This document shows, in pieces, positions 30,034 through 62,476 of a stretch of 64,000 nucleotides of DNA. The notes beneath the pieces are model-generated. The model was not told where the DNA came from. It made no database searches and saw only the letters and a program-made list of their open reading frames with translations. The translations under genes and the position numbers were made by a program. The stretch lies in NCBI RefSeq assembly GCF_900119385.1, contig NZ_FPKO01000009.1, positions 1,201,405 through 1,265,404 of the forward strand. Reading direction: 5' to 3'. Source of the stretch: Thermophilibacter mediterraneus. GTDB lineage: Bacteria; Actinomycetota; Coriobacteriia; Coriobacteriales; Atopobiaceae. The number at the start of each line of letters is the position of its first letter. The stretch's first letter is position 1.

Positions 30034-30118
30034 TGTGTTTTGTCAACTAGATTTGAGCAAAATGAGCACCGGAATCTGAGCAGCCTGCGCACGCGACGTG
30101 CGCAGGCTTTTTGAGCGC

Positions 30119-30811: not shown

Positions 30812-30928
30812 CGGCCTCGCCTCCCCTCAGGAAGCCGTCGCAGGCGGACAGGTCGGCCCCGCCCTCCCCGCCGAGCGCGCCGGAGGCGATCCGCCTGGCG
30901 AGCACGTCGACCGTGGCGTCGTCGGGCA
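30801..30928 (-). pseudogene. C-terminal piece of the outer istA
   Basis: This is the last 40 codons of the istA whose first 453 codons end at 33386. Removing the inserted element at 30929-33385 and one copy of the 8-bp duplication restores a continuous 492-codon frame, reading ...GRVPD then DATVDVLARR... The join keeps frame exactly. Confidence 0.88.
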
Positions 30929-31013
30929 TGTCTGTGTCAACGATAATTTGCCCTGATTCACAATCCGTCCGGGACACCTTCACGACGGGGAAATCCCCAG
31001 CTTCACGATTCCG

Positions 31014-31754: not shown

Positions 31755-31755
31755 G

Positions 31756-33210: not shown

Positions 33211-33373
33211 GCCCGGCATCCTCTCCACGACCCTTCTCCTCATCGCTGGCTTGGACCCCAACGACTCGAGGGTAGGTCGTCTCTAGGTTGTTCGGCATGC
33301 CGTCACTAACAAACTGGGGAATTCCCCGCCGTGATTCCGGGGCAGAGCCCCTGTGAATCCGGCCATTTATAGG

Positions 33374-34744
33374 CTATCTCAGACAGTCGGGCACGCGCCC
33401 GCCCTCGACGACGCGCAGCGCGGCCCGGCACGCCGCGCCGAGGCCCGACGCGGCGCTCGCGCGCGCCATGGACCCGGGCGTCTGCCTGCGGCCGGCGGCG
33501 CCCGTGCGGTCGATGCCCTCGACCAGCCCCTCGGGCATGTCCCGCCGTATCGTGGACTCGCCGAACGCGCGCGGCCTGGCGACGATCGCCGGGACGAGCG
33601 ACAGCGGGTTGCGCACGGCGGGCCCGGCGCCGTAGGCCCTCGGGAGCACGGCCACCCTGCGCCCGCGGTCGGCGACGATCTCGACCGAGCCGGGGCGCAT
33701 CCCGACGAGCAGCTCCCCTCCGTGCCACGCCGGGCCGGCGACGCACTCGCGGCCGTCGACCTCGACGTAGCCGCGCTTGTCCGCCCTGGCCCGCACCCAC
33801 CGCACCGCGTCGAACGCGGCGCCGGGCAGCGCGCGCATCTCGGCGAGGTCCTCGCGCAGGGCCTCCGCCGACGCCCGGCCGTCGCGGCACCCCGCAGCGG
33901 CGTTCAGGCGCGCGCACCCCTCCGCCAGCAGGGCGCTCGGCTCGGCGAGCGACCCGACCCCGGGCACCGGCACGAGGAGGTTGCGCCTCAGGTAGCCGAC
34001 CGCGCTCCCCGCCGACCCCTTCTCGTTGCCCGAGTAGGGGCTGCGGTACCTCGACTCGACGCGGTAGTGCCCCCTGAGCAGGGAGAGCGGCCCGGACTCC
34101 GTCACCTCGCCGCGGACCATCCTGCCCGCCTCGGTCGCGTTGTCCAGGACCAGCACCCTCGGGGCGCGGCCCCAGCGCGAGAAGATCGCCGCGAGCCCCG
34201 CGCACAGGCACTCCGACCTCTGAGACCCCGGCGCGAAGCACTGCCTGTCGTTGGAGTGGGGAGGGGTCGCCACCAGCAGCTCGGGGGCAAGCCCCTCGCC
34301 CGCGACGACGGCGCGGAAGTTGCCGAAGTCCGCCTGGCAGGTGCCCGGGGCCCACTCGAGCTCCAGGTAGCCCTCGCCCGCGCCGGCCGAGCGCGCGAGC
34401 CCCCGCTCGCGCACGAAGCGCTGGACGGTCGAGTAGGAGCCGGCGTAGCCCCTCTCCTCGACCAGCCGGTCGTAGATCCTCCTGGCGGTGTGGCGCTGCT
34501 TGCGCGGCGCGCCGAGGTCGGCCTCCAGGACCGACTCGACCCACCCCGCGTGCTCGCCGAGCGCGGGCCTCTCGCGCCGCGCCGGCACGGGGGCGGCAGG
34601 CGACATGTCCTCCATGTCGGCATACTTCGCGACGGTGTTGCGGCTGACGCGGAGCCTGCGGGCGATCTCGGCCCTCGGCACCCCGTCGGCGTCCATCGAC
34701 CGTATATCATTCCTTGTGTCCAGGGGCACGGTCATCTCCTCCAT
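33374..34744 (-). pseudogene. N-terminal 453 codons of the outer istA
   Basis: Helix-turn-helix ARRLRVSRNTVAK, then the DDE core with GTCQADFGNF, LVLDNATEAG and SGNEKGSAGS. Codons up to 33386 are genuine; the last four codons (33374-33385) belong to the inserted element. The Glu after GNEKGS, where a VEN or VER triplet is usual, appears as AGS, so the catalytic Glu assignment is uncertain. The remaining C-terminus is at 30801-30928. Confidence 0.88.
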
Positions 34745-35003
34745 CCTTCCCGGGCGGCCTCGCCAAAGTGCCCGCCCGGGACAACCCTACGGCGAGGGCC
34801 GCGCCCCTGGTCCAGGGGGCGCGGCCCTCGTGCTGAAGCTGCTCATTGTGTTTGATAACGTCTGACTTGCGGATTTAATCACCCGGAACTTTCGGGAATG
34901 ATCACGAAAAACTTTCGGGTTTGGGCATGGGCACGCCGACCACCCCCGGCGGGCCTACCGTTGTCGATGCTTCGGTATTCGACGAGGGGAGGCCGGGAAG
35001 GAA

Positions 35004-36506
35004 ATGATCGGCGTGGACAAGATTGACGATATCAGAAGGCTCGGGAGGAGCGGCGCGAGCGTCGCCTCGATAGCCCGGGACACCGGGGTCTCCGAGCCCA
35101 CAGTGAGGAAGTACCTGAGGGAGCCGGACCTCTCCGAGAGGCCGCCGGCGGTCGGGAGGACGCCCGAGTCGCCGCTGCTGGAGCCCTTCGCGGAGACGAT
35201 CGACTCGTGGCTGCGCGAGGACAGGCGCTGCTGGCACAAGCAGCGCCACACCGCGAGGAAGGTCTTCGACCGGCTGGTCGCGGAGGAGGGGTTCAGGGGG
35301 TCGTACTCGACGGTCCAGAGGTACGTGAGGCGCAGGCGCGGGGAGCTCGCCGCCGAGCTCGACGCCCGCGAGGCGCAGGGATTCCTGCTGCTCGACTGGG
35401 CGCCCGGCGAGTGCCAGGTCGACTTCGGGCAGGCGGACTTCCGCGTGCGCGGCGTCGTCACGCGGGGCCACTTCCTCGTGGTGGAATTCCCGCACTCCAA
35501 CGTCGGGCTCGCGCAGGTCTTCTGGGGCGAGACGGCCGAGTGCGTCTGCCAGGGGCTGCGCGACGTCTTCGAGTTCCTCGGGGGCGTGCCGCTGCGGGCC
35601 GTCTTCGACAACGCCACCGAGGTCGGCCGCAGGGTCGGAGCCGAGATCAGGACCTCGGAGCTCTTCCGCCGCTTCGCCGCGCACTACGGGCTCGACTACA
35701 GCTTCACCAACCCCCACTCCGGCAACGAGAAGGGATCCGTGGAGAACAAGGTCGGGACGCTCAGGAGGAACCTCTTCGTGCCGATGCCGCAGGTGTGGGA
35801 CGTCAGGTCGTACAACGAGCGGCTACTCGGGACGTGCCTGGAACTCTCGGACGGCAAGCCGCACTACCGCAAGGGCGCGAGCGAGTCCGAGCTCTTCGGG
35901 GACGACCGCGCCGCGCTCTCGCCGCTGCCCGCGGCGCCGTTCGCGTGCGTGACGTGGCTCACTCGGAAGTGCGACAAGCAGGGCTCGTTCAAGGCAGGCG
36001 GCGAGCACCGCTACTCGGCGGGCCCCGCCAACGCGTCGCGCGAGGTCGCCGTCGCGATGGGCGCCTTCGACGTCACGGTCGTCGGCGCCGGCGGCGAGGT
36101 CGTCGCCGAGTATATCCGCGAGTGGGGCGACGCGCCGACCGACTCCGCCGACCCCACGCTGCAGCTGAGGCTGCTCTGCGTGCGCCCCGGCGGCTGGCGC
36201 GACAGCGTGGTCAGGCGGTCCCTCCCGGGGGACCTCGTCGCCTTCCTCGACTCGGAGGCGCCCGCCGACCTCGGCGCGGACCTCAGGGCGCTGCGCGACG
36301 TGAGCGCCAGGCGGGGCTGGGCCGCCACCGTGGAGGGCGCGCTGAGGTCGCTCGGGGCCACGGGCGGCGTCGACGCCGCCACCCTCGAGCTCGCCGCCGC
36401 CAGGGCGGCCGCCGGCGACGCGCTCGTCGAGTACGACGAGCCGGTCGACCTCGCGGGGTACGACCGGGCCTTCGAGCTGCTGGAGGGGGGCGCCGCAAGT
36501 GCCTAG
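35004..36506 (+). CDS. istA: IS21 transposase IstA
   Basis: The 500-residue transposase has an intact helix-turn-helix (SIARDTGVSEPTVRKYL) and DDE core (GECQVDFGQADF, AVFDNATEVG, SGNEKGSVENKVG). It should be active in strand transfer, but its istB partner is disrupted. The start follows GGGAAGGAA. The istB start GTG lies inside its last codons (8-nt overlap). Confidence 0.92.
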   Translation: MIGVDKIDDIRRLGRSGASVASIARDTGVSEPTVRKYLREPDLSERPPAVGRTPESPLLEPFAETIDSWLREDRRCWHKQRHTARKVFDRLVAEEGFRGSYSTVQRYVRRRRGELAAELDAREAQGFLLLDWAPGECQVDFGQADFRVRGVVTRGHFLVVEFPHSNVGLAQVFWGETAECVCQGLRDVFEFLGGVPLRAVFDNATEVGRRVGAEIRTSELFRRFAAHYGLDYSFTNPHSGNEKGSVENKVGTLRRNLFVPMPQVWDVRSYNERLLGTCLELSDGKPHYRKGASESELFGDDRAALSPLPAAPFACVTWLTRKCDKQGSFKAGGEHRYSAGPANASREVAVAMGAFDVTVVGAGGEVVAEYIREWGDAPTDSADPTLQLRLLCVRPGGWRDSVVRRSLPGDLVAFLDSEAPADLGADLRALRDVSARRGWAATVEGALRSLGATGGVDAATLELAAARAAAGDALVEYDEPVDLAGYDRAFELLEGGAASA

Positions 36507-37031
36507 GGTCCCGGACTCCGAGCGCGAGGAGTTCTCCTCGCGCGCCAGGTCGCTGTTCATATCGAAGGCGACGGTGGCATGGTTCCTCGAGACCGCTACG
36601 CCCGGTCAGCTCGCCGCCTGCTCGGGGATGCTGGCCCGGGAGCTCGAGTCCCGGGAGCGGTCCAAGCGGGCGAGGCTGCTGCGCCAGGCGAGGTTCCCCG
36701 TGCCCAAGGCCGTCGAGGGGTTCGACTGGTCGAACGTGCGCTTCCCCGAGGGCTGGGGGCGCGACGAGATGCTCTCGCTCGACTTCGTCGGGCGCGCCGA
36801 GGACCTCGTCTTCCACGGGCCGACGGGCCGCGGCAAGACGCACGTGGCGACGGCCCTCGGCATCGAGGCGACCCGGCAAGGGATGCCGGTGCGCTTCTTC
36901 CAGACGGCGGCGCTGGTCCTGCAGCTCGGCAAGGCCAAGCGCGAGGGGACTCTGGATCGGGTCATCGCCGACATCGGGAAGGCGTCGCTCGTCGTCCTCG
37001 ACGAGTTCGGCTACGTGCCGTTCGACGTGGA
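36499..37031 (+). pseudogene. 5' part of istB interrupted by IS256
   Basis: GTG 36499 starts an IstB with Walker A GPTGRGKT and Walker B VVLDEFGYVP. At codon 178 the frame is broken by the IS256 element. Joining 37031 to 38503 restores ...PFDV then DGARLLYQ and a 251-residue protein. Confidence 0.9.
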
Positions 37032-38493
37032 GATTGCGTGCCAAAAGTTGGTGTCACGGGCCGATTGGCTAAAGAAACGGCCATCACCTAGAATCTTGAA
37101 GTGTCGAAGTTCGAGATGAAAGGGATGGCCGCAATGGACACTTTACACGATGAAGGGGCTTCCGTGCTCGATATACCCCGATATAGCGACGGAATGATAA
37201 ACATCCAAGAGCTCGGGCGCATGCAGCTCGAGCAAGCGATCAACCAGATAATGGACTGGCAGGCCGATGAGATATGCGGCGAGGGAAACAGGCGGAACGG
37301 ATATCGCGAGCGAAAGCTGCTGACGCCATTCGGCGAGGTCACGCTGCGGATTCCCAAGCTCAGAGAGGGAAGCTACTTCCCCGATGAGCTGATCAGGCCG
37401 TACTCGCGCGCCGATAGGGCGATGATCGGCGTGGTCAAGGAGGCCTACGCGAAGGGCCTTTCCACGAGGAAGATAGAGAAGGTGGCCGACAATCTGGAAA
37501 TAGGGTCTTTGAGCCCCTCCCGCATCTCCAGGATGGTCTCGGAGCTCGATGAGGAGGTGGCGGCGCTCGCCGAGAGGCGATTCGACGGGATGGCCTTCCC
37601 CTATCTTTGGCTCGATGCCACCTACATCAATTGCCGGGACGAGGGGCACGTTCAATCCCTGGGCCTGGTCACGGCGATAGCCTGCGCCCAAGATGGCTCG
37701 AGGCGCTTCGTCGGATTCGACGTCGTGGACACCGAGTCGGCGGCATCCTGGAAGGCTTTCCTGCGCAGCCTGCGGAGACGCGGGATAACCGGAGTGATGT
37801 GCGTGGTCTCCGATGACCACGGCGGGCTCGTGCAGGCCATAGCCGAGATATTCCAGGGCGCGGCATGGCAGCGCTGCATAGTCCATCTCGAGCGCGATGT
37901 CGCGAGGTGGTTCAAGTCGAAGAACGATAAGGGCATCGCCTTGGCCGCGATGAAGGCCGTGTTCGCGGAAAGGGATCCGCAGCTCGTCCGCGCGGCCTAT
38001 CGTCGTGCAGCGGAGATCATATCCGGGCTGAGCAGGCGTGCCGGCGAGCTGCTCGAGGATGCGGAGGCGGATGCCTTGGCGTATCTGGACTTCCCCCGCG
38101 AGCATCACATCAAGCTCCGCACGAACAACGTCCAGGAGCGCGCCAACGAGGAGATCAAGCGCAGAACCAAGGCGGTGGGCGTCTTTCCGTCCATAGAGTC
38201 GATGAAGCGGCTGGCCGGCTCCGTGATCCTGGACATCAACGAAGATTGGATGGGCGGGCGATTCATCGATGCGGAATCCCTCGAGGACATCGCGAGAACG
38301 AAAGATGAGGACCCGACGATACCCATCGAGACGATGGAGAAGGCGAAGATGCTTATAGAGGCAGCGATCCGGGAAAGGAAGGCCGCATGATGCTGTAGAA
38401 TAGAGCTGATTCCGGGTGATGCTCCGATTGCTCGGGCAGGCTAAAGCCTGCACCTCGCAATCGGAGAGATGACACCAACTTTTGGCACGCAAC
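37032..38493 (+). mobile_element. IS256-family insertion inside istB
   Basis: It is bounded by inverted repeats containing TTGCGTGCCAAAAGTTGG on the left and its complement on the right. A direct duplication CGACGTGGA flanks it (37023-37031 and 38494-38502), matching the 8-9 bp produced by IS256 elements. Removing it and one copy of the duplication rebuilds istB in frame. It is lower in GC than its host element, suggesting it arrived last. Confidence 0.93.
37116..38390 (+). CDS. IS256 (mutator) family transposase
   Basis: Transposase of about 424 residues with RRNGYRERKLLTPFGEVTLR, the catalytic Asp in WLDATYIN, the second in VVSDDHGGL and Glu in NNVQERANEEIKRRTK, spaced as in IS256. The central CIVHLERD motif is also typical. 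The start is uncertain: in-frame GTG 37101, ATG 37116, 37125 and 37134; the last lies 9 nt after AAAGGG. The gene looks intact. Confidence 0.93.
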   Translation: MKGMAAMDTLHDEGASVLDIPRYSDGMINIQELGRMQLEQAINQIMDWQADEICGEGNRRNGYRERKLLTPFGEVTLRIPKLREGSYFPDELIRPYSRADRAMIGVVKEAYAKGLSTRKIEKVADNLEIGSLSPSRISRMVSELDEEVAALAERRFDGMAFPYLWLDATYINCRDEGHVQSLGLVTAIACAQDGSRRFVGFDVVDTESAASWKAFLRSLRRRGITGVMCVVSDDHGGLVQAIAEIFQGAAWQRCIVHLERDVARWFKSKNDKGIALAAMKAVFAERDPQLVRAAYRRAAEIISGLSRRAGELLEDAEADALAYLDFPREHHIKLRTNNVQERANEEIKRRTKAVGVFPSIESMKRLAGSVILDINEDWMGGRFIDAESLEDIARTKDEDPTIPIETMEKAKMLIEAAIRERKAA

Positions 38494-38502
38494 CGACGTG
38501 GA

Positions 38503-38725
38503 CGGCGCCCGTCTGCTCTACCAGGTCATATCCGACTCTTACGAAAGGAGGAGCATAGTGTTCACCACGAATGTCGAGTTCAGCCGGTGGGGCACGGTCT
38601 TCGCGGACGACAAGCTCGCCGCCGCGATCGTGGACCGCGTCGTCCACCACGGCAGGCTCGTGGAGTTCGGAGGGCCCAGCCACCGGCTCGAGGAGTCGCT
38701 CATGCTGGGCAAGTCAGGAAGCTAG
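38503..38725 (+). pseudogene. 3' part of istB interrupted by IS256
   Basis: Carries the C-terminal IstB motifs VFTTNVEFSRWG and VHHGRLVEFGGPSHR. With 36499-37031 it makes one istB; a stand-alone start is not expected. Confidence 0.88.
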
Positions 38726-49743: not shown

Positions 49744-49932
49744 AAACAATCGGGAAGAGGTCAGGAGGGCAGTAATGGTCCATTAACAGCTGCTTTGCGC
49801 TGAATCGAGCCGACCTCTTGGGGTTTTGCCAGGAAGAATGGACATGTCGTTATAGAAGAGACTTAGGATTAATCCACCTTCAAAATGAGATGCTGATACT
49901 GGCTGGTGAACTGCTTTGGTAACGGAGAGAAT

Positions 49933-52107
49933 ATGAACTCAGACCATCCCATTGAATCGTGCCCTGACGATGCGCTTGGAAGAGCGTCGGTTGCTCGTCG
50001 TGTTGCAGACCAGCTTGCGCTCGCCCCCATGGACCACTCGATTGTGTTTGGGTTGTATGGACCTTGGGGGTCAGGCAAGACTTCGCTGTTGAACATGGTT
50101 TGCGAGAAGTTGGAAGGTGTCGACAATCCACCAGTTATCGTCAAGTTCAACCCCTGGAACTATACGTCATCGGAGAATCTTGCCACACCCTTTCTAGCAT
50201 TACTCTCTGAATGTATACAGCACGGGGCGCACAGCACTATCCCGGAGAAAGCTGCCAGGAAGCTCAGCAAAACAATGAAGAGGTACTCAGATGTGCTCGC
50301 TTCGGCTGCGGATGCCTTTAACTGGGTTCCTGCGGTGGGGGTTGTTTCGACTCTCCTTCGTCATATTGGTAGGGATGACGAGAAAAGCGCCTCTCCAACC
50401 AATCTAAAGAATCGCCTATCCAAGCTTCTAATTGACACAAATACTCGGGTAGTGGTGATAATCGATGACCTTGATCGTCTTTCAAACGATGCCGTTCGCT
50501 CGGTATTCCAGCTAGTAGCCGCTGTCGCCGACTTTCCGGGGGTGAACTATCTGCTTGCCTACGATCTAAACAATGTAATAAAGGCGCTGGGGTCGGTTCA
50601 AGAGTGTGAGGGCGAGCGTTATCTCGAGAAGATAGTCCAGATTCCCATTGAGCTTCACGAGCCGAATCCTGGAAGCATTCTTGAGCTGTTAGTGGATGGA
50701 CTTAATCAGCTCCTCTCCAACCATAGGCTAAGTGACGACGAGGTGAACGACGTGGAATCCTGTCTTCATTTGGTATTCAGGAGGATTAGGTCGGTGCGCG
50801 ATTTGCGGCGTCTGCTCAATGTGTTTGAGGTCGATTTGGCTGAGTCGTGCGGTGGGGTCGCTCCTGCGGACGTGCTTGTCATGTCCTCTCTCCGACTCTT
50901 TGCCCCAAGGCTGTTTCCGTGGATAAGCGCGCGTCGAAACGAGCTGGCAGGAGGAGCGCGGGGTGGTTATGAGCTCGCTTTGGCAAAGGAAAAGAGAGAC
51001 GAGTTCAGCAAAGAGCTGAGGAGTATTCTTAATGGAGATGACGAGGCTGAGCTCTACGTGTTTGACCTGCTATGTAAGGCTTTTCCTCGATTTGAGAACA
51101 ATTGCGGCGTCCGGGCGGTAGGCGTCTCTGAAGCCATGCTAAGACTGAACAGAAGGATTGCCTGCCCGGAGATTCTAGATGGATATCTGTCTGGATTGCT
51201 TGAGCGATACTCGTTCCCCCGAGAGGACGCCTTGAGACTTGTCAAGACGGGCTCAGCTGACGAGTTGGGGGCCTTTTTTGCCCAAGAGGGAGGGGAGGTT
51301 TCGTCCACGGTCTTGTCTGCAGCTGTGGAGCTTGCCCCTAGCTTGTCCTCTGCCCAGCTCGAAAACATTGTCAGAGCGATGTTGAGATCGGGCGGTGGTA
51401 ATAGTAAAGACCCCACACTAATGGGGCTGTTCAGCGTATTCTGGAACTCGCTTGAGCACCTGATTCGGGAGCTTGGGAAGGAATCCGCAAGTCGGCTTAT
51501 GGTTGAGGAGACACGAGGTAGGAGCTTCCTGGAGCTCGTCCCTCTCGCCGCATTTGTAAATGAGCAGGAGCTTTCCTACGCAAGGCTCGCGGGGGATATC
51601 GAAAAGCCTGATGAGCAGCTGATAACACTGGAGTCTCTCATCGAAGTCGAGAGAAACATTGTGAGCTCATTGAGAGGCGCAGAGATAAAGCCTGCTGATC
51701 TTGAGGACGGCGGATCGAGGATGCTGCTTTATCTCTGGAGCTGCTTCGATTCAGAGAGCTATGACCGTCTTGTGACTAACGGCGTACTGAGAGAACCTTT
51801 GGGCTATGCTCTACATGCGATGCATTATTTGGGGACTTTTGCTACTGGGACAAATCACGGTTGGTCGCTTTCAGAGAGCCGAGATGATATCGACCTTCCA
51901 AGGCTTTGCTCATGTATGGGCGATGTCGCTGAGTCTGAGGACTTCTGGAAGCTGCCCCGGGGTACACGGAGGCTAGTTGCCGCGCTGAGCGTTTGCGCAG
52001 AGAAGGCCGTGGATGGGGCGAGTGGAGTCGACTGGTACAGGGCGACTGCAAGCGAACGCGAAGCGGATATGCGCCTTCGATCATGGGCGGCCAGATTAAT
52101 CTCATAG
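49933..52107 (+). CDS. KAP family P-loop NTPase
   Basis: The 724-residue protein has Walker A GLYGPWGSGKTS near residue 40, FNPWNY soon after and Walker B VVIIDDLDRLS near 175, the classic KAP triplet. KAP NTPases are often membrane-linked and occur in defence islands; no strong membrane helix is seen between the Walker motifs. ATG 49933 follows GGAGAG. It stands alone after the prophage scrap. Confidence 0.88.
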   Translation: MNSDHPIESCPDDALGRASVARRVADQLALAPMDHSIVFGLYGPWGSGKTSLLNMVCEKLEGVDNPPVIVKFNPWNYTSSENLATPFLALLSECIQHGAHSTIPEKAARKLSKTMKRYSDVLASAADAFNWVPAVGVVSTLLRHIGRDDEKSASPTNLKNRLSKLLIDTNTRVVVIIDDLDRLSNDAVRSVFQLVAAVADFPGVNYLLAYDLNNVIKALGSVQECEGERYLEKIVQIPIELHEPNPGSILELLVDGLNQLLSNHRLSDDEVNDVESCLHLVFRRIRSVRDLRRLLNVFEVDLAESCGGVAPADVLVMSSLRLFAPRLFPWISARRNELAGGARGGYELALAKEKRDEFSKELRSILNGDDEAELYVFDLLCKAFPRFENNCGVRAVGVSEAMLRLNRRIACPEILDGYLSGLLERYSFPREDALRLVKTGSADELGAFFAQEGGEVSSTVLSAAVELAPSLSSAQLENIVRAMLRSGGGNSKDPTLMGLFSVFWNSLEHLIRELGKESASRLMVEETRGRSFLELVPLAAFVNEQELSYARLAGDIEKPDEQLITLESLIEVERNIVSSLRGAEIKPADLEDGGSRMLLYLWSCFDSESYDRLVTNGVLREPLGYALHAMHYLGTFATGTNHGWSLSESRDDIDLPRLCSCMGDVAESEDFWKLPRGTRRLVAALSVCAEKAVDGASGVDWYRATASEREADMRLRSWAARLIS

Positions 52108-53046
52108 GCTGGAATGTCGGCATGACGCTGCTTCCTGTGAGGACAAGGAGCTCCGCGCTTTTCTCGCTCGCTTTCATGAGCTGGGCATCTCTCTCGTGAA
52201 CCCTTCTCGTGTTCTTTACTGAAAATCTTTGGCGGTGACGCTCTCTCTTTTGACGGTTTTTTCGCCAAGTCTCGGATGACTTGGTGCATTCTGCTGGAGA
52301 GGCGGTGATGGGGGAAACTGTATCAGGAGCTCTCGATTGACATGGGTGTAGTTGTATGCCTTGTTGAGGATGTGGCTGCATCACGCCTCGACTGCTGCGA
52401 GCACTTTCTCGTTGAAGCCAGGGCCGGTACTTACCGAGACTTTTGAGTTTTGAGAACCATCGAGGTTGCTTTGAAATGCCTAGTGGGGGTTCCTGTCAGG
52501 TGCAGAACAGCTCATTTATCGTTTTTTCTCGACGTTCTTCTCATGCCCACGAGAGCACTCGATGACTATTGTGATGAACTTCTTTATGCCTTTGAGCTTG
52601 GGTATGTGAATCGTGACCTCACCGGAGACCGTCGTGAGCCTGAGCTTGTAGCGTCTGCTCGGCATGTCTTTCGGTTGGCGGTGCACTCGTATCGTCTGCG
52701 CCAACTAAGGTCGTTGACCTCCTCGTCAAGAAGGTCATTCGGCGTTATCTGGTGCTCTTCCAGACGAGTTTGCGTAGGGTGGTTCCCGGACCACCTCACT
52801 AAATGCTACGACGGACTCGGGGGCGGCTTTCCTCCAATACGCTTCTTGTCACGATATCTTGAATCATGCTGAGATTAGCCGTTTCTTCCCTACATTCTGG
52901 ATGCAATTCCGCTATCAAAGAGCATATGAGAATGTACGTTACTACGAGTGAGGTGTGGCATCACAAGATAGTGGTCTACGATAGCTGGTCCATAGATATT
53001 GACTGAGCAGATTAAGAAGAGTGTCGAATTGGTACGGGAGGCAGCT
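52108..53046. other. Degenerate spacer with IS256 remnant
   Basis: No intact gene. The only recognisable item is a frameshifted IS256-type transposase start on the reverse strand (about 52480-52800). Bases 52108-52480 and 52800-53046 show nothing I can name. Confidence 0.5.
52480..52800 (-). pseudogene. IS256-type transposase remnant, frameshifted
   Basis: On the reverse strand one frame reads LLDEEVNDL and RRYECTANRKTCRAD, and a second frame continues YKLRLTTVSGEVTIHIPKLKG. Together these match the N-terminal third of an IS256 transposase, with at least one frameshift near 52650. It is not close to the intact IS256 at 37032, so it is a different subtype. Confidence 0.65.
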
Positions 53047-54123
53047 TTGATTGCATTATGGATTATCGGTAACGGGTTTGACCTGAACGTGGGCCTGCGT
53101 ACCGGATACCAGGATTTTCTTAACGATGTCTACTTGAAAGATGGGCCACATTCCGTGCGTAGGGACCTGCTTGTCAAGCTCGTTGACGAGGACCCTAGAT
53201 TGAAAGGGGGCAAGTATTGGTCAGACCTGGAGGGTCTGCTTGCGTTTGCAACATCGATGTGTCCAGAACGGGTAAGTGAGCGTGACTTTACCGGTATTTT
53301 TGAGGAGATGCAGAAGCTGTTTGTGAAGAAGGTCGCAGCGGAGCAGTCGCGCTTGATGTTGCCCTTGCCGGCAGAAGCGATTTCAGAGTTCCGGGATTCC
53401 ATCATCCGTGTGTCTTCTAGGATGTGCCCGCGAGATCGGCGAAAACTTCCTTGTAATCTATCTGTGCGTGAGAGCATCACCTGGGAGTTCATCGCTCTGA
53501 ATTACACCACGGTTTTCGACGCCTTTCTTCGCTCTGCTATCAAGGAGAAGGGGGCAGAGTTCAATCGAAACACCAGTGGTCGTATTTTCGTCGACACTTT
53601 GAGAAATGATATTCTTCATCCGCACGGAATCATCTCTGACGATTCTGATGGAACGGAAATCATCTTCGGCACTTCCTCCCCTGATCAGTTTGGGGCTGAA
53701 AACCCCAGTGAGTTCGAACTTCTTAACGAGTTGTGGGTAAAACCCAACAAGAATCAAGTTATCTATGGTAACGAAAAGACCGAACGCCTTTCTGAACGTA
53801 TATCTAATGCGCGAGTCTTTCTTTTGTATGGGGTTTCGCTTGGAGATAGCGATCGATACATATGGGAGATGATTGGAGAGCGCATGGCAGAAGCGACTGC
53901 TTGGACGGTACTCTTTTGCCATGGCTTGCCCCGATCCAGTTCACAGGATTCGTTGCTGTATTTAGACAAGAGAAGGCGACTCCAGAACCGGTTCCTGGAC
54001 GCTATCGGCATTGATGACAAGAACCGGGACAACGTCCGAGATCGGATAATCGTTGTTCCGTCGGATGAGTACTTTATGTTTAAAGATATGCAGTTGGTGA
54101 ATGAAGCTTCTGACGTATCTTAA
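53047..54123 (+). CDS. AbiH-like abortive infection protein
   Basis: The 358-residue protein has the AbiH motifs WIIGNGFDLN (residues 5-14), FIALNYTTVFD, ILHPHG and FLLYGVSLGDSD. TTG 53047 is chosen because GGGAGG lies 5 nt upstream and it places the motif next to the N-terminus; TTG 52999 is the longer alternative. AbiH blocks phage growth by an unknown route. It is convergent with the 457-aa unknown gene. Confidence 0.82.
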   Translation: MIALWIIGNGFDLNVGLRTGYQDFLNDVYLKDGPHSVRRDLLVKLVDEDPRLKGGKYWSDLEGLLAFATSMCPERVSERDFTGIFEEMQKLFVKKVAAEQSRLMLPLPAEAISEFRDSIIRVSSRMCPRDRRKLPCNLSVRESITWEFIALNYTTVFDAFLRSAIKEKGAEFNRNTSGRIFVDTLRNDILHPHGIISDDSDGTEIIFGTSSPDQFGAENPSEFELLNELWVKPNKNQVIYGNEKTERLSERISNARVFLLYGVSLGDSDRYIWEMIGERMAEATAWTVLFCHGLPRSSSQDSLLYLDKRRRLQNRFLDAIGIDDKNRDNVRDRIIVVPSDEYFMFKDMQLVNEASDVS

Positions 54124-54185: not shown

Positions 54186-55559
54186 TTAGAGGACTATCGT
54201 CTCGCTTTTCAACTCTTCGAACATCCTATCAATATCGTCGTAGACCTCTCGTGCCTGCTGTTCGATTTCCGCCCTGACGTACTTGTCTCGTGCCTCTGGT
54301 TTCTCGATGAGCGTCCATTTAAGCTGTTGGTAGGAGTACTTTGCAAAGGCAATCCACTGGGCATAGCTAACTGCCATTGGATCCTTGGTGAAGGCTATCC
54401 TTCCTGCATTAGCTGCGGTCGCAATGGAGTGAGAGATGAAGAGCATTGTCCCGAGCTTGGGATACTTTTCTCGGTCCGTTGAGAAGGGAATCGCCTCTTT
54501 GATGGGGACGCCGTCCTTGATTTTGCGCAATGCATAAGCGAGGCGTACAACGATTTCATTCACAGCTACGGGGATTGACTGGGCGCAGAACTGTATGAAG
54601 TCGTATCCCTCGTAATACATTCCCTGTACGATTTCGGCTATGGTCGCCTCTTCTTCTCCAATCTTTCCAAATTGCATGAGGCTGAACAAGGCCATCCCGG
54701 GAGCGGGGAGTCCAGCAGGGGTGGTGACATCGGAGAAGAAATGCAAGATTTGGGTGATGAGTGCCTGTACAATATCTGTCTTCTGCAGATGGGCGTAGCG
54801 TTCGATAACCTGAACGACAACCTTGCCGTTCTTGTCGATGGTGGTCATGCGTCCGGTGAGGATGTCGGAGACGCCAACGACGAGACCAAGCAAGGGATCG
54901 TGGCCCAAGGAATAGAGTCGATGCATGCCGGGGAAGAGGCCTTCGACTCGTGTGGTTGTGAAGCCGTCGTTGATTGGAGCGTCATACGGAACCTTGCTCG
55001 CCTTCTCGAGCTGTCGGATTTGCTCCGGGCTAAGGGAGTTCTCGATGTGGTCTCTGATGAAGTTCGATAGTGGCCCTGCCTCTGTGCCGCTTGGCGTTTT
55101 CTTTGGGAGACCAATAAGCAGGATATCGATGGCTGCAGCAAGCAATCCCGCACCGGCGGCGATGGCAACATCAAGTTGATCGAGCTTGTGAATGGCATCG
55201 TACTCTGCGTTGAGTCGCCTGATTTCAGCAGAGTTTGTCTCGAGCTCTTCTTCCGAGAACAGGTTCTCTAGAGTGTCGTTGCCATGGCCACTTGCGGTTG
55301 CTTCGCTGAGCAGCACGTCCCAAGAGGGGAGTGCGATGGGGCGATGGGCTAGCGCAAGCGCAGACTGCCGTTCGTCGGCCCCGGCATCATCAGCGGGGAG
55401 GTCATACCCGAGTGATTTGAGCAGGGCTTCTGAAGAGCTGATGGCACTCTCGGCATCAGACAAATCTGGCATGGTGATGCCCTTCAGCTGGGCATCCTGA
55501 AACCCGAGCACCGCATTGAGTTCCTGCTCAGATTGGTTGTACTCGTAACGGCCCATCAT
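54186..55559 (-). CDS. Unknown 457-aa protein, partner of the glycine-zipper protein
   Basis: Residues 1-130 are acidic and variable. A hydrophobic segment follows at 132-150 (AIAAGAGLLAAAIDILLIG). The core has MHRLYSLGHDPLLGLVVGV at about 212-230, then TTIDKNG and a long helical C-terminus. I recognise no named family. Its ATG overlaps the stop of the upstream gene (ATGA), so the two are coupled. A 5'-truncated second copy of this gene lies at 59971-60933. The surrounding genes are all defence-like, which suggests but does not prove a defence role. Confidence 0.7.
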   Translation of the reverse strand: MMGRYEYNQSEQELNAVLGFQDAQLKGITMPDLSDAESAISSSEALLKSLGYDLPADDAGADERQSALALAHRPIALPSWDVLLSEATASGHGNDTLENLFSEEELETNSAEIRRLNAEYDAIHKLDQLDVAIAAGAGLLAAAIDILLIGLPKKTPSGTEAGPLSNFIRDHIENSLSPEQIRQLEKASKVPYDAPINDGFTTTRVEGLFPGMHRLYSLGHDPLLGLVVGVSDILTGRMTTIDKNGKVVVQVIERYAHLQKTDIVQALITQILHFFSDVTTPAGLPAPGMALFSLMQFGKIGEEEATIAEIVQGMYYEGYDFIQFCAQSIPVAVNEIVVRLAYALRKIKDGVPIKEAIPFSTDREKYPKLGTMLFISHSIATAANAGRIAFTKDPMAVSYAQWIAFAKYSYQQLKWTLIEKPEARDKYVRAEIEQQAREVYDDIDRMFEELKSETIVL

Positions 55560-56386
55560 TTCCCCAGATCGGCTCTCAGGTCATTGACGGCCTTGGTCAG
55601 GAGGACATTGAGGGACTGCAGGTAGTCGAGGCGCTCTTTTGAGGCGTCTGCCTCATCCTTGAGGGCTTGGATAATCGCCTGGTGTTTCCTCAGGGCCTCC
55701 TTGTACAGGCGCTCCTTCTCTTGTTTGAGTTGATCGGCCTTCAGCTTTGCCGCAAGACCGATTCCTACCCCCGCTCCAATTGCCACCGGAGCGGCAAGAA
55801 CGAACACTCCCGCCGCCATGCCGCCACCAACAAGAGCCCCTGCCGTTGCGAGGGCCGAGGTCATCCCTGCAGCTGAAAGACCTACTGTTCCGAGGCCGTA
55901 TAGGGCTGCGAATGAGGCGATTCCGCCGGCCGTTGCGCCCAGAGCTCCGCCAAGGACCTCGGGAATTGCGCTCTCACCGATGGTCCTGTCCTTATCGCTT
56001 AAGGCTGCCGATGCCTCGTTTACCACGTTGACTACGGGTTGAAGGGCTTCGATGCTTTGGAAGTTCATCGATTTCTTCTTTTCGAAGTCTCTCTTTGCAT
56101 TCTCGATTCCGTCAGATATGGCACCCGCGGCATCACCTGCTGCTTTGCTGGCTTGGGACAGGGCCTCTCCCGTTGCCTTGCCAGCCTGAGATAACGCATC
56201 TCCGGCTGCCTTGCCAGCCTGAGATGCGGCCTCACCAGCAGCGTCTCCAATCTGGGAGGCAAGGTCGTTTGCTGCGCCACCAATTTGCAGGGCGGCCTCG
56301 TTTGCGGCGTTTGCCGCGTTGCCAGCGAAGCCTTGGATGGCAGCACCAGCGCTTTTGATTCCATCGAGCGGGTTCGGGAAGTCCAT
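55556..56386 (-). CDS. Apolipoprotein-like/glycine-zipper membrane-active protein
   Basis: In the 276-residue protein, residues 20-95 form an amphipathic helix built of 11-residue units (QAGKAAGDALS, QAGKATGEALS, QASKAAGDAAG). Residues 141-213 form a long Gly/Ala-rich hydrophobic stretch (GGALGATAGGIASFAALYG), a glycine zipper. Residues 214-276 form a charged coiled coil. This layout suits a protein that inserts in or tubulates membranes. ATG 56386 lies after GGAGGT. It is the first gene of the pair with the 457-aa protein; no enzyme motif is present. Confidence 0.7.
   Translation of the reverse strand: MDFPNPLDGIKSAGAAIQGFAGNAANAANEAALQIGGAANDLASQIGDAAGEAASQAGKAAGDALSQAGKATGEALSQASKAAGDAAGAISDGIENAKRDFEKKKSMNFQSIEALQPVVNVVNEASAALSDKDRTIGESAIPEVLGGALGATAGGIASFAALYGLGTVGLSAAGMTSALATAGALVGGGMAAGVFVLAAPVAIGAGVGIGLAAKLKADQLKQEKERLYKEALRKHQAIIQALKDEADASKERLDYLQSLNVLLTKAVNDLRADLGK
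56123..56254 (-). repeat. 33-bp imperfect tandem repeats coding 11-residue helix units
   Basis: Three to four units of about 33 bp share CTTGCCAGCCTGAGAT-like segments. They code the amphipathic 11-residue repeats of the protein above. The number of copies could vary by slippage. Confidence 0.7.
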
Positions 56387-56696
56387 GCGATACCTCCGCG
56401 GTGAAAATGCATTAGCCAAGCATGTTTGATGGTAGTTCAAGAGAGTCGTGATGGAGTGAGCAACGTGGTTGGCGGTCTTGGTGGGAAGACCGGCGGTCGA
56501 ATTGGAAGCTGTTTCTCAACCCCTATGCCGTTCAAATGGGGCGTGGTTGAGCACAATCTTGCGGCGTGAATTAGGTGGGCTATCCAGTTGGCCGACGTCC
56601 GACGTCTGAGCCCCTTGTCGACTTCTGACCAAGCATGCCCTCATGGGTATTGGCTTAATATGGACCAGTCGGCAGCCTCATCTCCCCGGAGCCCAC
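56387..56696. other. Divergent promoter region
   Basis: This 310-nt region lies between the glycine-zipper gene (reverse) and the GmrSD-like gene (forward). AATATGG near 56660 and an imperfect hairpin (CTCAACCCC with GGGGCGTGGTTGAG, about 56515-56552) are the only features seen. No gene. Confidence 0.4.
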
Positions 56697-59219
56697 ATGA
56701 ACGCCACGCCACAGACAATCGTCAGCCTGCTCAGCACCGCCAACCAGCGGATGGTCATCCCCGTCTACCAGCGCGCGTACTCTTGGGATGAGGAGCAGTG
56801 CCGGCAGCTCTGGGATGACATCGTGGCCGCTGGGCGCCGGAGCTCCGGCAACCACTTCACCGGTTCCGTGGTCATGGTGCTGGGCGGGGAGTTCAGCGCC
56901 GGCGGGGTGAACAAACTCCTGGTCATCGACGGTCAGCAGCGCATTACCACGATCAGTCTGCTCATCGCTGCGGTTGCCGAGTTCGCGCGCGAGCATCCCG
57001 AGAAGCTTACGCATGCCTCCTACGAGGAGATCATCGACAGTAGCTACCTCGTCCTCAAGCACAAGAAGGGGGAGGACCACTACCGGCTCACCCTCTCGCA
57101 GGGCGACGAGAAGTCGCTTCGCTCCGTCCTCGACCACCTGGAGAACCCGGACGTCGAGGTCGTGAGCGAGTCCCACAGAATCGTGGACAACCTCGCGCTC
57201 TTCCGCACATGGCTGGGAAACATTGACGACCCCAACGTGGTCTGGGACGGCATCCAGCGCCTCGAGATCGTGGCTATCACGCTCGCTCAGGGTCAGGACA
57301 ATCCGCAGCTCATCTTCGAGTCGATGAACTCCACGGGCAAGGATCTCTCAACGGCTGACCTCGTGCGCAACTTCGTGCTCATGGGCCTTCCCATGGACGA
57401 GCAGGAGGACCTCTATGCCAACTATTGGCGCAAGATCGAGGAGACGCTCGGGGCGGACAGCTACGACGAGGTCTTCGACGAGTTTCTGCGCGCCTGGCTC
57501 ACGGTCATCAATGCGCCGGCCAGCATCGTCGCGCGCGACGTGTACCGCCTGTTCAAGCGTCACGTCGTGGACAACGGCTACGACAAGCCCGGGCAGATGG
57601 CGGTCTTGCTCAAGGAGATCAGGCGCTACGCCGGTTACTACGCCCAGATCACGATGGGCGCCGCGAACGACAAGGACCTCCGCATGCGCCTTGCTCGCAT
57701 CAAGGCACTCGACGTTACCGTTGTGAACCCGCTGCTCATGTCCTTCCTTGATGACTACGATGAAGGTTCCTTCGGTCGCGACGACCTTCTGGAGATGCTT
57801 GATGTAACGGAGAGCTATCTCCTGCGCCGCTCCGTGTGCGACATTGCTACGAACAGTCTCGGTAAGTTCTTCTCGTCGGTCGTCGCTCGTCTCAATGCTG
57901 CCCAGGAGGAGGGACGCAACTACTTGGAGGCTTACGAGGCGATTCTTCTGGGCGAGGCGGGGACTGCTCGGCGCATGCCGACCGACGCGGACTTCGAGCG
58001 AGCGCTCAGGACGCGCGACTGCTATGCGTTCCGTCGCGGCTTCTTCCTGCTCTCAGCCCTTGAGAACAGCTACCATCCCAAGGATCCGCGGGACTTTGCG
58101 GGCGGTGCCTATACCATCGAGCACATCATGCCCAGAAACGCGCTTGCTCGGGAGGATTGGCGAAAGATGCTCGGCCCGGAATGCGAGCGCGTTCACGACG
58201 AGCTGGTCAACGCACTGGGCAACCTCACGCTCACGGCGTACAACTCGGAGCTCTCCGATGCGTCCTTTGCCCAGAAGAAGGCGCGCACAGTTGGGGGCTA
58301 TGACAAGGAGCTTCTCGTTATTTCCAAGTCGCTCCAGGACACGGATGTCTGGAATGAGAAGACAATCCGCGCTCGTACGGACGCCCTTGCAAATCGAGCG
58401 CTTGAGATATGGCGGATGCCCCATCTGGATCACTCCGTCATTGATTCCTATCGTCCGGCAAAGAAGGCGGCATCATCCGCTATGCGCAAGATTACGTTCC
58501 GCATGATCTGTGCATCCGGTCATCTCAAGGCGGGAGATACTCTGGTCTCGTTCGAGGACGGGCGCGAAGTTACGGCAAAGATTACGGAGGATTACGCAAT
58601 CCGCCTCTCCAACGGTGAGGAAGTCGACAGCCCCTCGCGTGCGGCCATTCGTGTCAAGGAACTCGAGACGGGCAAGCACTACGCTGTAAACGGCTGGCAG
58701 TACTGGCGGGTTGGCGTGGATGGCCCGTACCTTGCGGAGTTCAAAACAGCGTATCTCTCCGAAGCGGAAAGAGCAGACGAGCTTGATGCCGCTAGCCTTC
58801 GTGCGGCGTTCTGGGACGGCTTCTTTGACTGTTGCTCCGAGCGAGAGGACTTTGTCAGGGTATACGGCGACCAGTCCGAACGGTGGGACAACCGTGGGTG
58901 GAGCGTCTCCTTTGGACTGGGCATCCACGGCGCAAGCGTCCTTGCGTATTATTCGCGGCGTGGGTGGGTCGCTGCAAGCATCTGGATGTCGGACCTTGCC
59001 CTCTACGACAGTCTCCTTGCCCGTCGCAGCGAAGTTGACGAGGTCCTTTCCTCTCTTGGCGGGAAGATCGCCTGGAACGAGGGGAACGAAAAGTCTCGCG
59101 AGCTTCTTGTGCGCTTGGATACCGATGTCACGCCCGAGCATTGGGACGAGCTGTACGCGTGGCTCGTTGACGGGCTGCTCAAGATTCGGACGGTGGCCAG
59201 GCTGCTCGAGGCGGAGTAG
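56697..59219 (+). CDS. GmrSD-like DUF262/DUF1524 restriction protein with RAMA and DUF4268 tails
   Basis: The 840-residue protein begins with a DUF262 (GmrS-like) domain: IPVYQRAYSWDEEQ (21-34) and VIDGQQRIT (76-84). A DUF1524 HNH-like nuclease follows: IEHIMP near 473 and NALGNLTLT near 500. Residues about 595-675 resemble a RAMA domain (AGDTLVSF, VNGWQYWRV). The last 165 residues resemble DUF4268. Such proteins are type IV-like enzymes cutting modified DNA; the RAMA part could recognise modification. ATG 56697 follows CCGGAG. Confidence 0.82.
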   Translation: MNATPQTIVSLLSTANQRMVIPVYQRAYSWDEEQCRQLWDDIVAAGRRSSGNHFTGSVVMVLGGEFSAGGVNKLLVIDGQQRITTISLLIAAVAEFAREHPEKLTHASYEEIIDSSYLVLKHKKGEDHYRLTLSQGDEKSLRSVLDHLENPDVEVVSESHRIVDNLALFRTWLGNIDDPNVVWDGIQRLEIVAITLAQGQDNPQLIFESMNSTGKDLSTADLVRNFVLMGLPMDEQEDLYANYWRKIEETLGADSYDEVFDEFLRAWLTVINAPASIVARDVYRLFKRHVVDNGYDKPGQMAVLLKEIRRYAGYYAQITMGAANDKDLRMRLARIKALDVTVVNPLLMSFLDDYDEGSFGRDDLLEMLDVTESYLLRRSVCDIATNSLGKFFSSVVARLNAAQEEGRNYLEAYEAILLGEAGTARRMPTDADFERALRTRDCYAFRRGFFLLSALENSYHPKDPRDFAGGAYTIEHIMPRNALAREDWRKMLGPECERVHDELVNALGNLTLTAYNSELSDASFAQKKARTVGGYDKELLVISKSLQDTDVWNEKTIRARTDALANRALEIWRMPHLDHSVIDSYRPAKKAASSAMRKITFRMICASGHLKAGDTLVSFEDGREVTAKITEDYAIRLSNGEEVDSPSRAAIRVKELETGKHYAVNGWQYWRVGVDGPYLAEFKTAYLSEAERADELDAASLRAAFWDGFFDCCSEREDFVRVYGDQSERWDNRGWSVSFGLGIHGASVLAYYSRRGWVAASIWMSDLALYDSLLARRSEVDEVLSSLGGKIAWNEGNEKSRELLVRLDTDVTPEHWDELYAWLVDGLLKIRTVARLLEAE

Positions 59220-59331: not shown

Positions 59332-59503
59332 CACGGGAATGACGAACCTCGGCAACGCTCTACTTGATATCAGATCAAACTTTGGTCTGAAGGACGCCGT
59401 TCCTGATGAGAAGAACTACGCGAACGCCGATCTTGAATCCGGGATCGATGCCTCTGAGTACCGGTTTGTCTTTTCGAATCGCGAGGGAGGAGTGAGCTCG
59501 ACA

Positions 59504-59959
59504 ATGGACAGGTCGCAGGAACTTGAGGATATCATCAAAGAGCTCTATACGCTCACAGGCAGGCTCGAGGCGATGTACCCCGGCAGGCACTTCACGCCTG
59601 ACGGCCACCTCGTCGGGAGCATCGGTGAGGTGTTCGCCGCCGAGCGCTACGGAATTAGTCTGTTCACGGCGAGCTACGAGACACACGATGGAGTGGCTCC
59701 GGATGGGCGGCTCGTGCAGATCAAGGCGACCCAGCGGCGTGCCGTCGCAATCAGCAGCGAGCCCGACTACCTCTTGGTGTTCAGCATCGACGACAAGGGT
59801 CAGCTGACAGAGGTCTACAACGGCCCCGGGAGGCCGGTGTGGCATCTCGTCTCCGGTCGGAAGAGGCCGAAGACGGGGCAGTACCAGGTCTCGCTCGCGA
59901 GGCTGAGGCGGCTCAACGAGGACGTCTCGCCAGAGGAGAGGATACGGCCGGTCGCGTAG
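59504..59959 (+). CDS. DUF6998 PDDEXK-like protein
   Basis: The protein contains YPGRHFTPDGHLVGSIGEVF, then HDGVAPDGRLVQIKATQ, the signature of DUF6998, which is predicted to have a restriction endonuclease-like fold (Glu in GEV, Asp in APDG, Gln-Ile-Lys). ATG 59504 lies 11 nt after GGGAGGAG; the same frame is open back to ATG 59339, so an extra 55 residues are possible. It follows the GmrSD-like gene on the same strand. Role in defence is inferred. Confidence 0.65.
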   Translation: MDRSQELEDIIKELYTLTGRLEAMYPGRHFTPDGHLVGSIGEVFAAERYGISLFTASYETHDGVAPDGRLVQIKATQRRAVAISSEPDYLLVFSIDDKGQLTEVYNGPGRPVWHLVSGRKRPKTGQYQVSLARLRRLNEDVSPEERIRPVA

Positions 59960-59970
59960 GCGGGCCGCCG

Positions 59971-60933
59971 CTATCCAAGCACAATCGAAGCTGCTGCCAC
60001 CTCCTCGAACAGCTCATCGATGTCACCATAAACGTCTCGCAGCTGTTCATCTATCGCGGTCCTCACATATCGATCCCGTGCCGCGGGCTTTTCTATGAAT
60101 ACCCACCTGAGCTGTTGGTAGGAATACTTGGCAAAGGCTATCCATTGGGGATAGCTGACTGCCATGGGAGTCTTGGTGAATGCGACTATGCCCGCATTCG
60201 CGGCGGTCGCGATGCTGTGGGCTGTGAAGAGCATGGTTCCGAGCTTGGGGTTCTTCTCGCGATTGGTCGAGAGCGGGATGGCGTCCTTAACGGGGGTCCC
60301 TCCCTTGACCTTGCGGAAGGCATAGGCGAAGCGTACCAGGATTTCGCATACGGCAACGGGAATCGACTGGGAGCAGAACTGGACGAAATCGTATCCCTGC
60401 CAGTACATGCCTTGGACAATCTCGGCTATGGTTGCCTTTTCATTCCCAATGCTCCCAAACTGCATGAGGTTGAACAGGGCCATACCGGGCGCGGGCAGGC
60501 CTGCGGGTGTCGTGACGTCCGAGAAGAAGTGCATGAGCTGCGTGACAAGCGCCTGCACGACGTCCGTCTTCTGGAGGTGTGCGTAGCGCTCGATTACCTG
60601 AACGGCGATTTTCCCATTCTTGTCGATGGTGGTCATCCGTCCCGTGAGGATGTCGGAAACTCCCACCACGAGCCCCAGGAGCGGGTCGTGCCCCAACGAG
60701 TACAGACGGTGCATACCGGGGCAGAGTCCCTCGACTCGGGTTGTCGTATAGCCTTCGTTGACTGGTGCGTCATAGGGGACCTTTGCCGCCCTCTCCAGCT
60801 CCCTCAGTTGACTAGGGCTGAGGGAGTGTTCGAGATGACCGCGAATGAAGTTAGTGAGCGGGCCTGCCTCGACTCTGCTCGGCGTCTTGCAGGGAATGCC
60901 CACAAAGAGTGTGTCTGTGTGTCTGAAAGTCAT
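59971..60933 (-). pseudogene. 5'-truncated paralogue of the 457-aa unknown protein
   Basis: From codon 6 on, the 320 codons match residues 145-457 of the protein at 54186-55559, with most residues identical and long runs such as MHRLYSLGHDPLLGLVVGV unchanged. The N-terminal 144 residues and the glycine-zipper partner are missing. The frame is otherwise undamaged, so the loss was recent or the fragment is still used. ATG 60933 has no convincing ribosome site. Confidence 0.75.
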
Positions 60934-61078: not shown

Positions 61079-61097
61079 CTCTCGGCACGGGAGGGTG

Positions 61098-61439
61098 ATG
61101 GACGCAAGGGCGCTGTTTCTGCACCAAGTCAAGAAGTTCGTCGAGAAGAACGGCTTCGTTCTCGTGCCTCGCGAGCAGAACGTGACGTTCATGGCCGAGC
61201 GTGGCATGACGATGGATGACCTCAGGCGAGTGATTCTTTCGCTTGAGCCGAAGGACATGTTCGACGGCCCCGAGCAAGATCGAGACCCGCGCTTTAGGGA
61301 CAAGTGGACCGTCGCGGAGTTTTCGCCTGCGTATGGGAGCGAGACGCTGTACCTGAAGCTGTCCGGCCGGACTGACGCCGAGCGATGCAAGTGCTTGTCG
61401 GTAAAGTTGTTTGTTGACCGACGGGAGACGAGGAAATGA
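61098..61439 (+). CDS. MqsR-like toxin
   Basis: The 113-residue protein has MTMDDLRRVILSL, then MFDGPEQDRD, WTVAEFSP, LYLKLS and CLSVKLF, following the order of MqsR-type mRNA interferases. ATG 61098 lies just after GGGAGGG. Its stop overlaps the antitoxin start (ATGA). The toxin is first, which is the usual order for MqsRA. Assigned by pattern; conserved catalytic residues cannot be confirmed by eye. Confidence 0.65.
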   Translation: MDARALFLHQVKKFVEKNGFVLVPREQNVTFMAERGMTMDDLRRVILSLEPKDMFDGPEQDRDPRFRDKWTVAEFSPAYGSETLYLKLSGRTDAERCKCLSVKLFVDRRETRK

Positions 61440-62476
61440 GCGTGGAGAAGACCATTAACACCTACTGCCCAGAGTGCGACTGCGAGGTAGTCGCGATTCT
61501 CGAGCATAGGGTTGAGACGTTGTCCGTCAAGGGCGAGCCGACCTCCTATGATGCCGAGGTTGCGGTCTGCCCGTGCTGTGGCGGGGCAATCGGAGACTCC
61601 CGCATTGAGGGCGAGAACCTGCGCCGCGCTTACTCCGCCTACTGCTCCGCCCATGGACTCATGGCTCCGGACGAGGTCAGAAGCCTTCGGAACAGCTACG
61701 GTCTCTCCCTGCGCGAGTTCAGCAAATTCCTCGGGTTCGGCGAGCAGACCGTGGCCCGCTACGAGGCAGGCGCAATCCCCGATGACTCGCACAACACCAC
61801 GCTCATGCTTGCCGCAACGGCTTCCGGGGCTGTCGCCCTGCTCTCGGTGAGGGAGGGCCAGCTGAGTGAGAGGACCGTCGCCGCGGTTCGTCGGTTCGTC
61901 GAGAGCAAGACCCCTGTCTCCGGAGCCTCTTCCGCCTTTACCGCGCGTCAGTGGCCCACCCCGGCAATGCTAGTTCCCGGCAGGTTCAACGGCTATCGCC
62001 CGTTCGATATAGATCGCATTGCCGCAGTCGTATGCGAGCTGGCGTCTCGTTGCGTCGACCTGTACAAGACCAAGCTGCAGAAGGCGATGTTCTTCACCGA
62101 CTTTCTGTGCTACGCGCGCACCACACGGTCGATGACGGGGCTCTCCTATGCGCACGCGGACTACGGCCCCGTCATGGACGGGAAGGACCGAATCGTTGTG
62201 CTCCTTCAGGATTGCGAGGCCATTGACCTTGCCCAGAAGGGGTGGGGAGAGGTGGTTGTGTCCAGACATCGTCCGACTGGCATTTTGAGCGAGGACGAGA
62301 TCCAGCTTGTCGACGAGGTGGCGGCCTTCGTTAATACGTTCGAGAGGGCAACGGACATCTCGTCCTTCTCGCATGGCCTTGATGCGTGGAAGGACACCGA
62401 GAGTGGTCGGCCTATCGATTACGTCGCAAACGCAGGGCAGGTTGCTGACGCAATCGAACGTCGCATGGCGAGATAG
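61436..62476 (+). CDS. MqsA-like zinc finger/HTH antitoxin fused to a Panacea (DUF4065) domain
   Basis: In the 346-residue protein, residues 11-48 are a zinc-binding module with CPEC and CPCC, as in MqsA/YgiT. Residues 89-112 form a helix-turn-helix (LSLREFSKFLGFGEQTVARY). Residues about 190-340 contain KLQKAMFFTDFL and YGPVMDG, a DUF4065/Panacea domain known in SocA-type antitoxins. It should neutralise the upstream toxin and repress the promoter at 61045. It overlaps the toxin gene by 4 nt. Confidence 0.8.
   Translation: MSVEKTINTYCPECDCEVVAILEHRVETLSVKGEPTSYDAEVAVCPCCGGAIGDSRIEGENLRRAYSAYCSAHGLMAPDEVRSLRNSYGLSLREFSKFLGFGEQTVARYEAGAIPDDSHNTTLMLAATASGAVALLSVREGQLSERTVAAVRRFVESKTPVSGASSAFTARQWPTPAMLVPGRFNGYRPFDIDRIAAVVCELASRCVDLYKTKLQKAMFFTDFLCYARTTRSMTGLSYAHADYGPVMDGKDRIVVLLQDCEAIDLAQKGWGEVVVSRHRPTGILSEDEIQLVDEVAAFVNTFERATDISSFSHGLDAWKDTESGRPIDYVANAGQVADAIERRMAR

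Follow-up and report, generated by a model that had tools for sequence, protein, structure and literature searches.

A probable Bunzi-type anti-phage gene pair without TerB in a defence island of Thermophilibacter mediterraneus

The two-gene locus and its proteins

The window (the whole 64,000-nucleotide stretch of Thermophilibacter mediterraneus DNA analysed here) carries two coupled genes on its minus strand, a bnzA-like gene followed by a bnzB gene (Table 1). A preliminary description of this DNA had proposed two genes joined by an ATGA overlap, and both open reading frames (ORFs) were confirmed. The length of the first protein is counted from the ATG, a longer TTG start at position 56440 being optional, and ATGA or similar overlaps between the two genes recur in many relatives. 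The flanking AbiH and GmrSD-like genes named in the same description were recovered with Pfam (PF14253 for the former; PF03235, E 6.7e-36, and PF07510, E 9.5e-23, for the latter). The surroundings of the pair, which also hold a KAP NTPase, a DUF6998 gene and an MqsR/MqsA-Panacea-like pair, are a defence island. Elsewhere in the window, positions 28881-38668 consist of repeated DNA, at least partly several IS21-like transposase ORFs and a mutator-type transposase, and the 426-aa product of positions 27161-28441, whose N-terminal half is rich in alanine and glycine, may be an exported, toxin-like protein.

Table 1. Coordinates of the bnzAB pair, its sequence features and other genes in the window.
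Feature	Position	Strand	Basis
bnzA-like gene, 276 aa (11-mer repeats, glycine zipper, coiled coil; without TerB domain)	55556..56386	-	PADLOC BnzA match
BnzA 11-residue amphipathic repeat region, residues 18-100	56087..56335	-	lag-11 self-identity
BnzA glycine zipper / hydrophobic hairpin, residues ~144-216	55739..55957	-	hydropathy and conservation
BnzA charged coiled-coil-like C-terminus, residues 217-275	55562..55738	-	long helices in model, conserved KERLYKEAL...YLQSLN
ATGA overlap of bnzA stop and bnzB start	55556..55559	-	sequence
bnzB gene, 457 aa	54186..55559	-	PADLOC BnzB match and AF2 model
BnzB single strongly hydrophobic helix, residues 128-149	55113..55178	-	hydropathy, helix in model
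BnzB motif H213-R-x5-H220-D-P222	54894..54923	-	alignment of 98 sequences
BnzB motif H273-x2-S276-D277	54729..54743	-	alignment of 98 sequences
KAP NTPase, resembles PifA	49906-52107		Pfam and PADLOC
AbiH gene (context)	52999..54123	+	PF14253 E 1e-25
GmrSD gene, 858 aa, RAMA and DUF4268 at C-terminus (context)	56643..59219	+	PF03235, PF07510, PF18755, PF14088
DUF6998 gene	59339-59959		Pfam
Remnant of a second bnzAB pair: first 10 bnzA codons in frame with bnzB from codon ~153	59971..60933	-	PADLOC, DNA comparison
MqsR/MqsA-Panacea-like pair	61095-62476		profile searches
IS21-like transposase ORFs	31756-33261, 33374-34744, 35004-36506		named by eye from sequence
Mutator-type transposase	37101-38390		named by eye from sequence

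The 11-residue repeats, the glycine zipper and the coiled coil that had been read from the first protein were all found again. Residues 18-100 hold about seven repeats of 11 residues, and their self-identity at lag 11 amounts to 36 matches against 11.3 +/- 2.6 in shuffled sequences, a value reached by 0 of 5000 shuffles; this region is helical in a predicted model of low confidence (pLDDT 58), which as a whole is too poor for use. Hydropathy peaks at residues 178-215, the sole stretch of the protein with transmembrane-level hydrophobicity, and the charged, coiled-coil-like tail follows. No part of BnzA varies less than the zipper, which is conserved as G-L-S-A-A-G-I-T-S-G-L-A...G-G-G-M-x-A-G across 49 homologues. 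Two other likenesses were set aside: potassium-channel S6 segments, the best solved-structure sequence matches of the BnzA profile (E 7e-4), are matches of hydrophobic composition, and a suspected resemblance of the zipper to interferon-induced Ifi-6-16 proteins was dropped when a search of the window's genome with PF06140 at E 10 gave no match.

The second protein had been described as unrecognised, a label that no longer holds: it matches the PADLOC BnzB profile of the Bunzi system with an E-value of 1.4e-62 (210 bits, profile positions 132-500 of 504). Its AF2 model has a confident fold (pLDDT 89.7, pTM 0.79), and its nearest relative is 85% identical. Numbered from the first Met, H213, R214, H220, P222, H273 and D277 are present in all 98 aligned sequences and D221 in 97. 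The pattern H-x6-H-x-P is kept in 116 of 118 BnzB sequences, among them most of the fused forms and of the very distant ones. Of the fused and remote forms inspected, almost all have H-x2-S/T-D. The stretch LYSLGHDPLLGLVVGV, previously singled out as a conserved core, is the most conserved part of the family in more than 100 loci. Because three histidines and an aspartate are so conserved, they suggest a metal or catalytic site; the invariant residues could instead serve structure or ion conduction. BnzB has no match in Pfam, where no enzyme family was found, and its profile retrieved nothing from PDB sequences. A fold search over the PDB and viral models yielded nothing significant (Foldseek best E 0.38, VIA Z <=5.9), and the closest structural neighbours, weak without exception, are for the most part membrane proteins. 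Among known hydrolases examined for a comparable motif, YdjM came closest in appearance. The H-x3-D then T-x2-G motif of the YdjM/DUF457 membrane hydrolases (PF04307) resembles BnzB, but this HxxxD-prompted kinship was rejected as a look-alike only, with no Pfam match among 14 members at E 10 and a non-significant profile comparison (hhalign probability 0.2%).

Distribution, modular architecture and a broken second pair

A BnzB relative was detected in 12 of 150 related genomes. Both genes are present in only 3 of the 31 genomes of the genus, with a weak BnzB match only in a fourth. The bnzAB pair is thus accessory and sporadic in the genus. Scans of public genomes and viral contigs provided 105 further BnzB loci. 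In 97 of them a zipper protein, or a small protein related to it, is encoded upstream, within 60 bp of bnzB in 78. Among the 101 usable loci, a short zipper protein directly precedes BnzB in 65 and a TerB-zipper protein in 5, while about 25 have a third gene between the zipper gene and bnzB (a gap instead in two broken cases). This third gene usually encodes 85-132 aa with a coiled coil (for example in L033, L044, L050, L077, L089 and L122).

In a BnzB tree of 56 rows, which has some long, weak branches at depth, one clade (support 100/99) unites the short and three-gene forms found in Bacillota, Coriobacteriia and Bacteroidales; the TerB forms, from cyanobacteria and others, fall outside it. 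Partners without TerB are the rule in this clade. The form on enterobacterial plasmids is short too and branches elsewhere in the tree, which makes repeated origin of the short form probable. Relatives also occur on plasmids (491 records, of which 436 are predicted to be conjugative) and, in a few cases, in records of phages. One Streptococcus phage record, phi-SsuFJNP8_rum (L024, 8244-25353), holds a Bunzi-like bnzB with Tet(M) on one side and a type VII secretion-like cluster on the other.

The N-terminus of BnzA varies across the family and consists of TerB (as in L103), 11-residue amphipathic repeats, an ADP-ribosylglycohydrolase or nothing. Two cyanobacterial proteins (L103, L108) have similar 11-mer repeats ahead of TerB, and on a viral contig (L118, 6619-7998) the zipper is joined to an N-terminal ADP-ribosylglycohydrolase (PF03747, E 1.5e-34). 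BnzB and the zipper form a single chain in L019 and, by sequence, in L017; TerB is fused to BnzB in L012. On enterobacterial IncHI2 plasmids (L027, 6394-9142; L028, 3408-6149) a trypsin-like protease gene is followed by a short Bunzi form. Since the N-termini of BnzA are exchanged and fusions join the parts, zipper plus BnzB is the apparent constant core of the family, and the fusions of BnzB with the zipper argue that both proteins work together.

Defence and recombinase genes abound around bnzB loci elsewhere, in line with the earlier view of a coupled membrane module among defence genes. At a PADLOC threshold of E 1e-10 or better, 143 neighbour ORFs from about 40 loci match 209 PADLOC families, including type I specificity subunits, against 9 families matched by 74 ORFs from the rest of the window's genome, a contrast that is qualitative only because gene calling was simple, the control comprises six 20-kb stretches of this one genome and a single ORF can be hit by more than one family. 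Recombinases and GmrSD also turned up among the neighbours in Pfam.

The island contains a second, truncated BnzB copy, which the preliminary description did not mention. It matches the PADLOC BnzB profile at E 1.3e-54 and is 77% identical to the 457-aa protein. The remnant shares 92.8% DNA identity with an intact pair of Olsenella sp. An285 (L031), with 93-96% on either side of the joint, and positions 9188-10456 of the An285 locus (1269 bp, 423 codons) are missing from it, with CTT at both ends and at the joint. From this comparison, the remnant is evidently the product of an in-frame 1269-bp deletion and the orthologue of the An285 pair. The intact pair of the window is only 71% identical to the An285 locus; the genome thus keeps the wreck of that locus plus a different intact pair 4 kb away.

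Assignment to Bunzi and possible modes of action

The Bunzi system is reportedly due to Millman et al. 2022, and we know of no phage experiment on its TerB-less form. It consists of BnzA and BnzB (PADLOC PDLC03833 and PDLC03834). The window pair shares with it the BnzB match over most of the length, the two-gene order of A then B, the glycine zipper and coiled coil of BnzA and the defence-island setting. The match of the first protein to BnzA is narrower (E 1e-6), pairing residues 148-244 with profile positions 307-407 of 544 (101 positions, 19%), that is, only the glycine zipper and the start of the coiled coil. Unlike canonical BnzA of about 544 aa, the window protein has 276, carries 11-mer repeats at its N-terminus and is without TerB; a Pfam scan detected TerB in neither window protein, and among 14 BnzA relatives in the alignment 5 have it. 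A published comparison table assigns TerB to Bunzi, as a reported component rather than one shown to be required (PMC10952713). NCBIfam and PHROGs returned nothing useful for either protein, which, together with the empty Pfam result, explains why the pair could not be placed before. With TerB in neither protein, we file the pair as a TerB-less variant of Bunzi, not as canonical Bunzi, and regard this assignment as very likely correct.

Other systems resemble the pair in part. LeoBC, the partner of dynamin-like LeoA (PMC4159319), weakly matches the zipper and coiled-coil part (E 0.6 for the window protein, down to 5e-7 in relatives), but the window pair and its flanking genes are without a dynamin/GTPase domain in Pfam. 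The phage defence candidate PDC-M09A of PADLOC matches the zipper of divergent BnzA and fusion forms (E ~1e-12), whereas the window protein gives no match. Shango (PMC10250203) has TerB in common with canonical BnzA only; it has helicase and ATPase partners, and the window pair is without TerB.

The mechanism of Bunzi is listed as unknown in a review (PMC12926258), and the literature searched gave no published one. We tentatively propose a membrane-bound device in which BnzA is the anchor and oligomeriser and BnzB an enzyme-like effector that acts after phage sensing. The amphipathic 11-mer repeats of BnzA would attach it to the inner membrane, its glycine-zipper hairpin would insert and oligomerise, and its coiled coil would hold BnzB. 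In BnzB, itself presumably membrane-associated, H213, H220, H273 and D277 would form a catalytic site, probably metal-binding, which once infection is sensed may attack a substrate in the membrane or one that contains phosphate; growth arrest or death of the infected cell would follow. TerB, the 11-mers or the ADP-ribosylglycohydrolase at the N-terminus of BnzA would serve as an exchangeable input or tuning part. Of the readings considered we hold this one to be the best: the explanation of the pair as a whole is likely, the mechanism within it less likely than not. A bolder extension, which we regard as speculative, would make BnzB a new fold class of membrane-embedded metal-dependent immune effector enzyme with zipper BnzA as its obligatory anchor, the trigger being set by whichever interchangeable module BnzA carries at its N-terminus (TerB, amphipathic 11-mers or ADP-ribosylglycohydrolase) or by a trypsin-like protease encoded nearby.

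Nearly as likely as this anchor-and-enzyme arrangement, and likewise doubtful in itself, is that BnzA is a pore- or leak-forming effector which BnzB merely restrains or triggers, infected cells depolarising and dying. The transmembrane-level hydrophobicity of the zipper, the amphipathic, membrane-type 11-mers, the constancy of the zipper within BnzA and the similar zippers of LeoBC and PDC-M09A are all consistent with such a pore. It leaves the three invariant histidines, the aspartate and the arginine of BnzB unexplained, however, and the BnzA model is of such low confidence that no pore is predicted. A pore with a regulator had been suggested in the preliminary description; joint action of the two proteins gains from the fusions, whereas a mere regulator fits poorly with a His/Asp cluster that points to an enzyme-like subunit.

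It seems unlikely to us that the pair is a cassette serving mobile elements in maintenance or membrane remodelling and not phage defence in the host. The plasmid-borne relatives, the few phage records and the adjacent recombinases would suit such a cassette, but relatives in the family are catalogued as Bunzi, and defence-gene neighbours, here and elsewhere, lie well above the genome's background. Less probable still is that the intact-looking pair is itself decaying and non-functional like the remnant. A broken pair does lie within the same island and a promoter scan returned no promoter-like sites upstream of the pair, where only about one is expected by chance; against decay, both frames are open and full length, the overlap is kept, all invariant residues are present and BnzB retains its close similarity to the nearest relative.

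The locus, then, represents a widespread stripped-down form of the known Bunzi family, in which the first protein is without the usual TerB and the second retains an invariant histidine/aspartate cluster resembling an active site. A large share of the family does without TerB, and the TerB-less clade points to a minimal core of zipper and BnzB, in which H213, H220, H273 and D277 of BnzB are named targets for mutation. Only a small part of the short forms is matched by the one BnzA profile, so counts of Bunzi-type loci in gut Bacillota and Coriobacteriia may be too low.
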